This document shows, one piece after another, positions 37,741-44,776 of a stretch of DNA of 64,000 bases. A program made the position numbers and the translations under genes. The notes under the pieces were generated by a model. The model ran no database searches and had not been told where the DNA came from. It saw only the letters and a program-made list of their open reading frames with translations. Source of the stretch: Sulfurimonas gotlandica GD1 (GTDB taxonomy: Bacteria > Campylobacterota > Campylobacteria > Campylobacterales > Sulfurimonadaceae). Numbering within the stretch: position 1 is the stretch's first letter; every line of letters starts with the position of its first letter. The DNA lies in contig NZ_AFRZ01000001.1 in the NCBI RefSeq assembly GCF_000242915.1, forward strand, positions 1,860,001 through 1,924,000. Reading direction: 5' to 3'.

Positions 37741-39069
37741 CTATTTGATATATGCTTTTATTATTTCTTGTCTATCTTGTGGTCTATCTGCACCACTTCT
37801 GCCAAAAGTATCTACATTATTCAGCTTCATAATTGTTTCCATAGAAGATTCTTTTACTTGGCCAAAAATAGTATGTCTGCCGTTTAACCAAGGAGTTTTA
37901 GCAGTTGTTATGAAAAATTGGCTTCCATTAGTATGTGGTCCTGCGTTTGCCATTGCAAGGATTCCTGCTTTGTCAAATGTTTTATTTTTATATTCATCTT
38001 TGAATGATTTATCCCAGATACTCTTACCACCCCTACCACTCTCAGTTGGATCTCCGCCTTGAATCATAAAGTTTTTAATAATTCTATGAAAAGCTATACC
38101 ATTATAGTAACCGTTTTTTATATGTGTTTTAAAGTTTTCAACTGCTAATGGTGCTATATCAGGATATAAATCTATCTCAATTTTGCCTTGAGTAGTTTCT
38201 AGAACAATTGTGTTACTTTCACTGGCTGCTTTTTCTGTGTATGAATCAAGTTTTATTGGTGCAATTAGTGATTTTTCTAAAGCTGCAAATTTATCATCTG
38301 ATTTAGTAGGAAGTTTAAAGTAAAAATCACCAATTATGTCATCATGTGTCCAAGGTCTTTGTTTTTGATTTGTTTTTTCATATACATCTTTTTTTACTCT
38401 TTTAAACATTCGACCTATTGGAATTCCTTCCGTGTCTATATGTTTTATAATTTGTTCTGTAAAAACACCGTTATTTTTATTTCCATCGCTTGCAACTTCT
38501 CCTGGACTTGTTGCATATGCTATGAACATACCTTTAGCATTCTGGACTTTTGCTAGACCACCTCCACTAGAGCGAGAAAATGGATTATTTCTACATGCAT
38601 CAAGTAAAACGATGTTTAATCGATTGCCTGATTTGTTCATTTTATTTATAACCCTACTAAGTTCAAGTGTTTCATCTTCTATCTCATCTTCTGAAATAAG
38701 GTTTGAGTCTTTGCCGATAAGGTAATTTTGTCCTTGAGATTCAATTCCGTGACCAGCAAAAAAGAAAAGACCAACACCACCTTTTTGAAGTTCTTCCCCA
38801 AAATCACGGAGCTTTTTGCGCATTTCGCGTACTGTTAGATTTTCACCATAGTATACTTTAAAGCCAAGGTCCTTTAATTTATCTTTCATAGCTCTTGAAT
38901 CATTTATTGGGTTCTGTAATTTTCCAAGACGATTACTGTCATATTGGTTGTTACCTATAACTAAAGCTACTCTTTGCTCAATCTTCATCATCTTAAATGA
39001 TCTATCGATATCCTTAGCAGCAAAAATTGTTAGTGGGATTAATAGTAGTAGAATAAAGCGTTTTATCAT
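37741..39069 (-). CDS. Secreted caspase-like protease (peptidase C14) fused to cyclophilin peptidyl-prolyl isomerase
   Basis: The 442-residue protein starts with a signal peptide (about 1-18). Residues 30-255 form a caspase fold: RVALVIGNNQYD, then LFFFAGHGIE with catalytic His107, and LLDACRNNPF with catalytic Cys159, with the C14/orthocaspase pattern ATSPGEVASDG following. A linker of about 30 residues leads to a complete cyclophilin from about 287: AFHRIIKNFMIQGGD with catalytic Arg329, NGSQFFITTA, and WLNGRHTIFGQV. Both active sites look intact. It would act in the periplasm. It follows the NERD/P-loop gene by 27 nt and has an AAGGTAAT ribosome site. I know of no described protein with this pairing. 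Confidence 0.9.
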   Translation of the reverse strand: MIKRFILLLLIPLTIFAAKDIDRSFKMMKIEQRVALVIGNNQYDSNRLGKLQNPINDSRAMKDKLKDLGFKVYYGENLTVREMRKKLRDFGEELQKGGVGLFFFAGHGIESQGQNYLIGKDSNLISEDEIEDETLELSRVINKMNKSGNRLNIVLLDACRNNPFSRSSGGGLAKVQNAKGMFIAYATSPGEVASDGNKNNGVFTEQIIKHIDTEGIPIGRMFKRVKKDVYEKTNQKQRPWTHDDIIGDFYFKLPTKSDDKFAALEKSLIAPIKLDSYTEKAASESNTIVLETTQGKIEIDLYPDIAPLAVENFKTHIKNGYYNGIAFHRIIKNFMIQGGDPTESGRGGKSIWDKSFKDEYKNKTFDKAGILAMANAGPHTNGSQFFITTAKTPWLNGRHTIFGQVKESSMETIMKLNNVDTFGRSGADRPQDRQEIIKAYIK

Positions 39070-41272: not shown

Positions 41273-41515
41273 CTATACCTCTTCAAGTCTATTGATTTTT
41301 CTAACAGCTCTAATAATCTCATCATCATCTAACTTTCCTAACATTTTCATAACTACTGAAGCAGCCTGAGGTTTAGCTCTGCCTAACTTCCAGTCCTGAT
41401 ATGTACGCATAGAAATCCCAAGTGAATCAGCCATATCTTTGAGAGATACTTTTTTCCCATTGTTTTTTGACTCTAGCGAGTTATGAAGAATATTAAATAG
41501 ATCATCAATTTGCAT
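41273..41515 (-). CDS. XRE-like helix-turn-helix regulator
   Basis: The 80-residue protein contains VSLKDMADSLGISMRTYQDWKLGRAKP (read in two parts: VSLKDMADSLG and ISMRTYQDWKLGRAKP), the typical Cro/XRE helix-turn-helix with the R-T-Y-Q-D-W recognition helix. The remainder is a short helical tail, enough for dimerisation only. It is first in a two-gene unit, behind the AT-rich region 41516-41734, where its own operator may lie. Its targets are unknown. Confidence 0.78.
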   Translation of the reverse strand: MQIDDLFNILHNSLESKNNGKKVSLKDMADSLGISMRTYQDWKLGRAKPQAASVVMKMLGKLDDDEIIRAVRKINRLEEV

Positions 41516-41734
41516 AAAGAGAAGTATACGGATTAAATACTTAAATATACATTTAATTTAACAAAAGGTATTATATAAATATGTTTATATGCAATTGAAG
41601 ATATTTAATACACAATATATAAGATTAAAAACACTATTTATATATTTATTTACACGGAAAACCGTATTCTAATTACATAGAAATATCCTCATATAGGAGG
41701 ATATAAAAAAATTATTGAATTTTGATTTTTGCTT
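41516..41734. other. AT-rich intergenic region with hairpins
   Basis: This 219-nt region separates the HTH gene from the FapA-like gene on the same strand. It has a perfect inverted repeat ATATCCTC/GAGGATAT (41683-41690, 41697-41704) that may end the FapA-like transcript. A small ACGG/CCGT hairpin lies near 41654. Quasi-palindromic TAAATACTTAAATATACATTTA-like DNA lies near the HTH gene and could be an operator. A TATAAT on the minus strand near 41575 could be its -10 box. No RNA gene is seen. Confidence 0.5.
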
Positions 41735-43408
41735 TTAAAGGAAGATGGATTTTTTAACTGGTTGTAGGGTGATTTTTTCTTCAGATATTTCTAGATAAAA
41801 AGGCTCGTAGCTCTGTGCATCAGTCTTGTAAACAATCTCTTCATCATTATCAAGAACAAAGATAATGTTATTTAGACCTTTTAGAGGTTTTTCTATAGTG
41901 ATTGTGGCTCTTGAAGCAGAGTCTTTTATAGTTTGTATCTCACTTTTTAATTTTTTTATTTCATCTTGGATACTCTCAACCTCTGACTTATTATGCCTGT
42001 TAGCTTCCTCAAGAGAAAATTTTAACTCTTCAATATCTTCATTTATAAGATCTATTTTAGAACATAAAATAGGAATATTTTTATAGTTGATTTTAAAAAT
42101 GTTATCCTCACCACTTACAAGTTTTATGCTTATAGATTCAGAGGCATAAACTTTTAAGTTGCTTTTTACATGTCCTATCTTTACATTCTGAGCATATATT
42201 ACTCCACCAAGAGAGGCTTCAATCTCAACATTAGTTGCATGGACAATTCCACCTTCTAAAAGCGCTATCTTGGCATCGTGGCATCTCAGAGTTCCTTTAT
42301 GTCTATTTATCTTAGCAACCCTTGCAAATTGTAATGAATCCTTGTGAGTAGCTCCATCTATCTGCATGTTTACAGCTTCCAATATACTGTTGGCACCTAT
42401 GTGACCATTTACGTGTATGGTTTCACTTGTAAGTTCAACACCTTCTCCAATACTGTCTTTTGTAGTGTCATTTTGAGAGATGTGTACTTCTATATTATTT
42501 GCTTCTTCTTTTGCAAGAGAATCTTGTACTCTTGATAATTTTGACATTCTTACTTTATTATCAATACTAAGCAGTGTTTCACTAAAGTGAACAAAACCTT
42601 TTACTCTACTTTTATATAATTTTTTATCATCACTCTCTTCAATGTAGATACTTTTGTCATCTACTGGTGTTTGAAGATCGTCTGCATTATGCAGGTAGTC
42701 TTTGTCTATCTGTTTGCCATGAGAGTTGAATCCGCTCTTTCCATATACTGGTTTTTTAAACTCTACAAGCACTTCATCTTTTTCAACTTCTATTATCTGA
42801 TGTTTCTGCTCTGATTCTTTGTGTTTAAACCAAAGTATTAGTTTACCAGCTCTAGTTATTTGAGGTTCTATCCCTTCAAAGAGAGGAATTCTTATTTTCT
42901 TTATAAACTTACCTTCATATAAGTATTTTGTAAAAGCTTTTAGATTTTTCATCATTTTTTCATCATATATATTGATTAGAATTCCATTTTTAGCTTTTAT
43001 CTTATTTATCTCTTTAAGTAGAAGTTTAAAAGTCTCTATAGGCTTATGGGTTTTATATAAAATATGTGAATCTGGGTGTAAAACAAGTTTTGGCATACAT
43101 TCGTGCTCGTCAAGTTCCAAAGTGTAGTTCAGCTTCATCTCTATCTCTTTTGTCTGAATGGCCACAATAGTATAGAGCTGTTGGAATTCTACACGTTGAT
43201 TTAGAAGGTTTTTTTCATCTTTATAATGTTCATTTATATTTTCATTAAAAAGTCTGAAATCATCATCGAAGCTTGTTTTAATATATGTAGCAACATTTTG
43301 TATATTAAAATCACATTCATTAAGAGGTATAAAATTATCAGATGCGAATGTTGTCATCGAGTTTTTAATATTTTTTGTTTTTATTATTGTATTTTGTATT
43401 TCACTCAT
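41735..43408 (-). CDS. FapA (DUF342) family protein
   Basis: The 557-residue protein has the DUF342 signature region KPVYGKSGFNSHGKQI (close to PVYGKPG in family members). A long beta-helix-like stretch follows (about 320-440: NIEVHISQNDTTKDSIGEGV, VNGHIGANSILEAV, HKGTLRCHDAKIALL). A C-terminal coiled coil of about 60 residues comes next (RHNKSEVESIQDEIKKLKSE). FapA-type proteins in Vibrio and others affect carbohydrate uptake or polymerase activity, but the role is not settled. It is last of a three-gene unit with the coiled-coil protein and the cyclase-like protein. Confidence 0.8.
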   Translation of the reverse strand: MSEIQNTIIKTKNIKNSMTTFASDNFIPLNECDFNIQNVATYIKTSFDDDFRLFNENINEHYKDEKNLLNQRVEFQQLYTIVAIQTKEIEMKLNYTLELDEHECMPKLVLHPDSHILYKTHKPIETFKLLLKEINKIKAKNGILINIYDEKMMKNLKAFTKYLYEGKFIKKIRIPLFEGIEPQITRAGKLILWFKHKESEQKHQIIEVEKDEVLVEFKKPVYGKSGFNSHGKQIDKDYLHNADDLQTPVDDKSIYIEESDDKKLYKSRVKGFVHFSETLLSIDNKVRMSKLSRVQDSLAKEEANNIEVHISQNDTTKDSIGEGVELTSETIHVNGHIGANSILEAVNMQIDGATHKDSLQFARVAKINRHKGTLRCHDAKIALLEGGIVHATNVEIEASLGGVIYAQNVKIGHVKSNLKVYASESISIKLVSGEDNIFKINYKNIPILCSKIDLINEDIEELKFSLEEANRHNKSEVESIQDEIKKLKSEIQTIKDSASRATITIEKPLKGLNNIIFVLDNDEEIVYKTDAQSYEPFYLEISEEKITLQPVKKSIFL

Positions 43409-43425
43409 GAAGTTACCTTGTTATA

Positions 43426-44079
43426 TTAATACGAAAGAAGATCACTATAGTCATACTTTGAAAAGTCTAGGTATAGCTTGCCATCTTTCTGAACTACTCT
43501 AATATCATTATCATAAACGGAAAGAAATCTTCTTTTGATTACTTTTCTTTGATAAGATCTCAAGTTTAATGTTTTAAGATACTCTTTTAGTTCAACAATA
43601 CCTGGTTCAGTCTCTGGAATTTCTTCTTCTTTTTCTAAAGTCTCAACTTCATGAATAGTCTGGTCCTGATGCTCAAGCATCATTTTTGTATTTACAAGTT
43701 CTAAAATATTTTTTAATTGCTCATCTTTTTTACTATATAACTGCTCAATTTTATCACGTTCATCACGAAGCATCTGCTCTTTGTCATCTATTAACTTGTC
43801 TATTTTGTTCTCAAGCTGCATGATTTTTTCTTTGAGTTGAGTGTTTTCTCTTTGGTAAAGTGCTATAACGGTTGCAACAGTTGTTTTTGGTTTAGTTAAG
43901 GCTCTTTTTTCTTGAACAGGTTCACTTTTTTCTTCTTTTTGCACTGGAATATCATCAACTTGAATGTATGTCACAGAGTCATCTATAATATAGTTTAGTT
44001 TTTTTGCTCTTAGTTTTGAGTTTATCATCTCTTTTGACATTTTAAATTGTTTTGAATATTCGTCTATCGTTAGTTGCAT
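43426..44079 (-). CDS. Coiled-coil protein with N-terminal HTH-like motif
   Basis: The 217-residue protein starts with a short helix-turn-helix-like segment (about 5-30, EYSKQFKMSKEMINSKLR). A strongly charged coiled coil follows (about 80-130, rich in K/E with heptads), then an acidic stretch, and a conserved-looking C-terminal part (LNLRSYQRKVIKRRFLSVY). No enzyme motif is seen. It starts 1 nt after the cyclase-like gene and ends 17 nt before the FapA-like gene, so the three are co-expressed. I do not recognise a named family with confidence. Confidence 0.65.
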   Translation of the reverse strand: MQLTIDEYSKQFKMSKEMINSKLRAKKLNYIIDDSVTYIQVDDIPVQKEEKSEPVQEKRALTKPKTTVATVIALYQRENTQLKEKIMQLENKIDKLIDDKEQMLRDERDKIEQLYSKKDEQLKNILELVNTKMMLEHQDQTIHEVETLEKEEEIPETEPGIVELKEYLKTLNLRSYQRKVIKRRFLSVYDNDIRVVQKDGKLYLDFSKYDYSDLLSY

Positions 44080-44080
44080 T

Positions 44081-44776
44081 TCATGTCCTTGTAAGCATAG
44101 AATTAAAATTTGTATTTGGCGGGTTAATTATACCAGCCTTTCGTAGCCACACTAAGCGACCCTCTTTTTTATTGCCGTGTTTATCTTCAAAAGTGTATGG
44201 AGATGAATATTTAAATTCTCTCTCAATTAATAGTGCATTAAAATTTTTATATCTGTCTAAAAAAGCTTTTAAACTTTCATAAGCAGTATCTGAAACCATT
44301 ATAGTAGAGATTTTATAATCTTTTATCTCCAAATATCTAGCACAGTCATTTAATCCATCACCTATATAGTTTTTATTTCCAAGTATATCTGTAAATTCAT
44401 AGATTTTACCTGTATGTACCGCAATTCTAAGGCCTTCAAAATATGAATATTTTGATGATATTTGCTCAGAAAAATAGTTAAAACTTAGACCTAAGATAAT
44501 TCCATAACCCTTTAGTTTAGGGTTTAAAATACAGTAAAAGCCATCACCGGTAGAGATATAGCCAAGTATAAGATTCTTAAGCGACATGTTTGAATTTTCT
44601 AACATCTTTTCTATCATCTTGGTGTAGCTTTTAGTTAAAAAGTTAATAATCTCTAACTGATGCTTTGCATCTAATTTAGAAAAATTGATGATATCAATGA
44701 GAACGATATCTGTTATCCACTCATTATTACTTTTAATAGGCATAGCAAACTCTATGTTTTTTAACCATTTTAACAT
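44081..44776 (-). CDS. Class III nucleotidyl cyclase-like protein
   Basis: The 231-residue protein resembles the class III adenylate/guanylate cyclase domain. It shows IDIINFS with a metal Asp at 28, STGDGFYC with the second metal Asp at 78, RIAVHTG, then YIGDGLNDCARYLE with Asn143 and Arg147 in the N-x3-R transition-state motif. The lysine that usually selects adenine before the second Asp is not seen. The protein could therefore be a divergent cyclase or an inactive relative. It has no sensor domain of its own. It opens the unit with the coiled-coil and FapA-like genes. Confidence 0.65.
   Translation of the reverse strand: MLKWLKNIEFAMPIKSNNEWITDIVLIDIINFSKLDAKHQLEIINFLTKSYTKMIEKMLENSNMSLKNLILGYISTGDGFYCILNPKLKGYGIILGLSFNYFSEQISSKYSYFEGLRIAVHTGKIYEFTDILGNKNYIGDGLNDCARYLEIKDYKISTIMVSDTAYESLKAFLDRYKNFNALLIEREFKYSSPYTFEDKHGNKKEGRLVWLRKAGIINPPNTNFNSMLTRT

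Follow-up and report, generated by a model that had tools for sequence, protein, structure and literature searches.

The products of the locus analysed here, hereafter A, B and C, resemble members of several described protein groups. Class III nucleotidyl cyclases, such as the rhodopsin guanylyl cyclase (5OYH), CyaC (1WC1), Rv1625c and the Anabaena uridylate cyclase (8JSZ), share with A the fold, the pair of metal aspartates and the N-x3-R motif. In A, however, the Lys/Asp (or Glu/Cys) pair is replaced by I/V and an invariant N, PF00211 does not recognise the protein, and the single domain carries a conserved C-terminal DKH...PP segment. The DUF2652 family (PF10851; PMC4886424) is, like A, uncharacterised, single-domain and cyclase-like, and recognised via remote homology only; its mycobacterial set carries Lys-Glu, with Ile replacing Asn, whereas A carries I/V-Asn and retains the Asn, and PF10851 matched none of the 19 A1 members. 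Pycsar systems, where PycC is combined with PycTIR or PycTM, share with A the class III fold and a non-purine base pocket, but A has no effector, no match to the PycC model and other pocket residues; the published pyrimidine-cyclase sets (Y50/D94/R97, F60/K104/F109 and F100/R142/Q144; PMC11224242) all differ from that of A.

C is related to the FapA/DUF342 proteins. In Vibrio, FapA is a flagellar protein, which binds EIIA-Glc only when dephosphorylated (PMC6877527), and titles cited in that paper speak of a delocalisation, away from the flagellated pole, that depends on glucose; the fapA gene of spirochaetes is part of flagellar operons (PMC11607428). C shares with these proteins the FapA_N domain, a solenoid-like region and a helical hairpin in its model, and a distribution which tends to follow flagella; it differs in being a shorter paralogue, encoded outside flagellar operons and dispensable, and most genomes with C-type loci contain an additional, longer FapA-type gene. 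B has in common with DUF3972 (PF13118) an HTH-like start, a coiled coil and the occurrence in Campylobacterota, but a match, below threshold, was obtained for one B relative only (L074, E 0.016). No literature on a set composed of A, B and C was found, in agreement with an earlier, sequence-only reading of this DNA, to which no such combination was familiar.

Layout and neighbourhood of the locus

The window, i.e. the whole stretch of 64,000 nucleotides that was analysed, belongs to the sulfur-oxidising bacterium Sulfurimonas gotlandica GD1 (Campylobacterota), whose genome consists of a single contig of 2.95 Mb. The three open reading frames were found exactly at the positions given by the sequence-only reading, all on the minus strand and separated by 1 nt (A-B) and 17 nt (B-C). 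The features of the region are the following:

41273..41515, minus strand: small HTH protein, 80 aa, next gene 3' of C; weak HTH_3 match, position conserved
41683..41704, minus strand: terminator-like hairpin immediately 3' of C; 8-pair stem, consensus match only
41735..43408, minus strand: C, FapA-type protein (DUF342 superfamily), 557 aa, predicted beta solenoid plus helical hairpin; PF20250 match and AlphaFold model
43426..44079, minus strand: B, 217 aa, predicted N-terminal HTH, coiled coil and conserved C-terminal segment; HTH_17 matches in relatives
44081..44776, minus strand: A, class III nucleotidyl cyclase-like protein, 231 aa; AlphaFold model with PDB fold search, conserved residues
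44855..45934, plus strand: divergent neighbour of A, fba-like by similarity

We take the divergent neighbour to be a class II fructose-bisphosphate aldolase gene (fba). Genomes of the Sulfuricurvum type have a pyruvate-kinase-like gene in its place; across the loci, the gene on the A side is fba-like in 41 cases and pyk-like in 27. On the opposite side, the hairpin is a possible operon end, judging from its match to the consensus, and the small HTH gene, followed by HU and further genes, is probably a unit apart from A-B-C. The order of the three genes is kept across Sulfurimonadaceae, and their arrangement is for this reason beyond chance; the entire neighbourhood is, however, generally conserved as well, so that operon order alone constitutes little proof.

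A strict sigma-28 promoter was found upstream of A in 0 of 88 cases. Looser patterns, counted with no null model and given no weight, were observed in 32 cases for sigma-28 with one mismatch and in 9 cases for sigma-54 with two mismatches. No cyclic-nucleotide-binding protein is encoded within the operon.

Fold and active site of the cyclase-like protein

Searches based on sequence only revealed no family match for A in Pfam, NCBIfam or PADLOC, and none among PDB sequences; its cyclase-like character could be traced through fold comparison alone. An AlphaFold model was obtained with 19 homologues (pLDDT 85, pTM 0.83) and used for a PDB fold search, where all top matches were class III adenylyl, guanylyl or uridylyl cyclases (best E 2.1e-9, probability 1.0), the Anabaena uridylate cyclase being found among the matches. 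The class III cyclase-like domain proposed from the letters alone holds up, the search having returned class III cyclases instead of an unrelated fold.

In an alignment of 87 distinct homologues, D28, D78 and R147 are present in every sequence, N143 in 86 and T76 is invariant. From their position and from general knowledge of class III enzymes, rather than from a complex, we take D28 and D78 to be the metal ligands and N143 and R147 to be the transition-state residues; similarly, position 74, four residues before D78, and position 136, seven before N143, presumably correspond to the Lys site and to the Asp or Thr site of adenylyl cyclases. Position 74 is occupied by I or V (61 and 26 sequences, respectively) and position 136 by N in 87 of 87, so neither characterised purine-selecting pair (Lys-Asp/Thr or Glu-Cys) is present. 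The alignment agrees with the earlier description of an intact aspartate pair and N-x3-R motif accompanied by no obvious adenine-selecting lysine, and the catalytic set stays invariant in homologues down to about 24-30% identity.

The best reading is that A is a cytosolic class III cyclase-like protein of an uncatalogued subfamily. It is probably active on some nucleotide, with predicted base-selecting residues which match no characterised cyclase. If active, A would represent a new cyclase subfamily, having its own base specificity and a flagellar role absent from the literature searched. Alternatively, A may have kept the fold and not the activity, working as a nucleotide-sensing or structural dimer which regulates B or C by contact. 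This is possible, though rather unlikely in our judgement: the adenine- and guanine-selecting residues are gone, no receptor with a cyclic-nucleotide-binding domain is found nearby, and there are known precedents, such as DUF2652 (PMC4886424), for cyclase-like families without the canonical base residues. Yet all 87 homologues keep both metal aspartates and the arginine, and 86 keep the asparagine, residues for which a scaffold with no catalytic function would have no need. Even without activity, the analysis names a protein family missing in Pfam and NCBIfam, and ties C-type, perhaps also A-type, genes to flagella.

Homologues of A were also found outside Sulfurimonadaceae. At L226:6970-8720, in a genome (G111) from a different family of Campylobacterales, a TIR gene of the ThsB type is directly followed by a gene for a distant class III cyclase-like protein of 384 aa, which has Ile and Asn at the same positions as A and matches no PADLOC cyclase model; dGTPase, Cas6 (Cas6b), Cas8b and PtuA matches mark the surrounding defence island. 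From its sequence, the pair is a candidate TIR-plus-cyclase defence pair. At L084:5493-6491 (G067) the A homologue is fused to a C-terminal coiled coil. Its gene precedes one for a UDP-GlcNAc 2-epimerase, and the region resembles a sugar-biosynthesis locus.

The I/N pocket shared with the protein beside the TIR gene, together with the uridylate cyclase among the fold matches, would fit a role of A as a Pycsar-like pyrimidine cyclase working in defence. We regard this as very improbable, and membership of A in Pycsar was rejected: neither A nor B nor C matches PycC or any other PADLOC model, the locus holds no TIR, TM or CNBD effector and no adjacent cyclic-pyrimidine receptor effector, and the pocket is unlike the sets published for UTP and CTP (PMC11224242). 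A is, moreover, inherited vertically and keeps a fixed position between housekeeping genes, which also argues against this role.

Partner proteins and composition of the set

The sequence-only reading had described B as a coiled-coil protein with a helix-turn-helix-like start. The coiled coil is read from the sequence; HTH_17 matches 8 of 19 aligned family members (best 2.2e-5, below the cut-off), while B of the window itself gave no HTH match, so that the HTH-like start draws its support from relatives. B is near-universal in the genus. A paralogue, B2, adjoins yajQ (DUF520): it is located directly behind this gene at L078:4971-6139, and the pairing recurs in other Campylobacterales families (L085-L087).

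C matches FapA_N (PF20250) with an E value of 6e-9 and 35.9 bits, against a cut-off of 27, and the same match is found in all 27 aligned relatives. PF03961, which describes the beta-solenoid domain, matched neither C nor any of these 27 sequences. In the AlphaFold model (pLDDT 85, pTM 0.52), a strand-rich, solenoid-like region (about 307-440) precedes a helical hairpin (446-495), and the C-terminal part forms a beta domain; the model gave no significant match in the PDB fold search. The assignment of C to the DUF342 proteins stands through the FapA_N match, and the beta-helix repeats read from the letters would correspond to the solenoid-like region. Two longer FapA-type paralogues of C are present elsewhere in the same genome.

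In Sulfurimonadaceae, B directly follows A in 74 of 75 loci, the sole exception being due to a contig end. Over the 77 named contigs containing A, B is the next gene in 74, the exceptions being the same contig end and two loci outside Sulfurimonadaceae; in almost every locus the two genes are co-directional and closely spaced. C is present at 28 of the 77 A loci, absent at 30 and undecidable at 19. In the 65 loci of the tree set, 17 contain both A and C, 21 C only, 11 A only and 16 neither (Fisher p=0.80): A and C are gained and lost independently of each other. An obligate A-B-C trio was rejected on these counts; conservation holds for the A-B pair but not for C, which is optional. B is the constant element, and A and C are its accessories.

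A protein family found at the position of C in three loci (family 37; L112, L116 and L117) was considered as a divergent form of C and discarded. Its members are unrelated to C in type: they are membrane-type proteins, match GH17 weakly and fill the place of C (L112:8485-10413, and likewise in L116 and L117).

Distribution relative to flagella

The relation to flagella was surveyed in those 114 genomes of the family whose completeness is 95% or more, using FlhA as a marker of flagella. FlhA is absent in 10 of them (G012, G357, three genomes of g84 and five of g31). A is found in none of these ten, compared with intact A in 62 of the 104 FlhA-positive genomes; any DUF342 protein is likewise missing from all ten, compared with 103 of 104 (the exception is G020). 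Fisher tests, which ignore relatedness, gave p=2e-4 in the case of A and p=2e-13 in that of the DUF342 proteins taken together. A Pagel test on the B-gene tree gave p=0.27 for A and p=0.046 for C; after the phylogenetic correction, C thus retains a weak link, whereas that of A falls short of significance. The number of independent losses is only three or four: three are changes on the B tree and a fourth, G357, lies outside it.

B is retained at orthologue-level scores in 8 of the 10 FlhA-negative genomes. In the flagellum-less loci examined (L066 and L203-L209; G012, g31 and g84) it lies near HU, and A and C are missing. G357, where B is lost, is the only sampled g30 genome without FlhA and also the only one without A. 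Two further genomes contain A in fragments next to an intact B: G010, where FlhA is kept and flagellin was not found, and G003, where the flagellin frame is broken. An intact A is lacking in about 40% of the FlhA-positive genomes, and C is frequently absent as well; neither is therefore required for flagella.

The best single neighbourhood clue for a flagellar role of A is provided by a Campylobacteraceae MAG (G051, L083:139-6393), where the A homologue starts a co-directional run with a gene for a flagellin-IN/flagellin-N protein, flaG, fliD and fliS. The flagellin-IN/flagellin-N gene of this run is of the hook-associated/flagellin-like kind.

Taken as a class, FapA-type proteins have a well-supported link to flagella; the link of C is moderate and that of A suggestive. 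The earlier proposal of a small second-messenger or assembly module is reasonable, and the evidence leans towards flagella; the trio is not fixed, however, and B alone persists where flagella, A and C are all missing. It is also conceivable that A, B and C are unrelated accessory genes in a conserved stretch, and that the flagellar pattern of A results from general gene loss in reduced lineages. The conservation of the whole neighbourhood, the independence of A and C and the non-significant corrected test for A are in line with this explanation. We consider it unlikely, since the g31 and g84 genomes that lack flagella, with sizes of mostly 2.5-2.9 Mb, show no reduction, A and B are co-directional and close in nearly every locus, and the L083 homologue of A lies within a flagellar run.

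We prefer, tentatively and at a little below even chances, the explanation that A is an uncatalogued class III cyclase, encoded in an operon with B and often C, which serves the polar flagellum; the A-B(-C) operon may thus be an undescribed route of flagellar control. According to this scheme, A would dimerise and then cyclise, or at least bind, an NTP, whose base would be read by L26, I/V74, T76 and N136 instead of adenine- or guanine-selecting residues. The product, or the nucleotide state of A, would tune how flagella are assembled or where they are placed. C and related proteins of the FapA type would act as a scaffold at the flagellar pole; a nucleotide signal on the FapA-type protein would be an input parallel to EIIA-Glc in Vibrio. 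B could be a DNA-binding protein, an adaptor or a coiled-coil partner, with an extra role independent of flagella. Within this scheme, the modelled fold, the conserved residues, the gene order and the joint lack of A and C in genomes without flagella are observations; enzymatic activity, ligand, contacts among the proteins, direction of control and phenotype are inferred. A bolder version, which we think improbable as a whole, is that A founds a class III subfamily which makes a cyclic nucleotide, the base being selected by an Ile/Asn pocket, and signals to the flagellum via FapA-type proteins, forming a dedicated flagellar second-messenger circuit in Campylobacterota. The A-B-C set would also allow the input to which FapA-type proteins respond to be tested.

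A further gene of the window, located at 37741-39069 on the minus strand, encodes a fusion of a caspase domain (Peptidase_C14) with a cyclophilin. In 39 syntenic relatives a short, cyclophilin-sized protein only (about 103-205 aa) is found at this place, and no other genome of the set appears to have the fusion, as predicted from the sequence.
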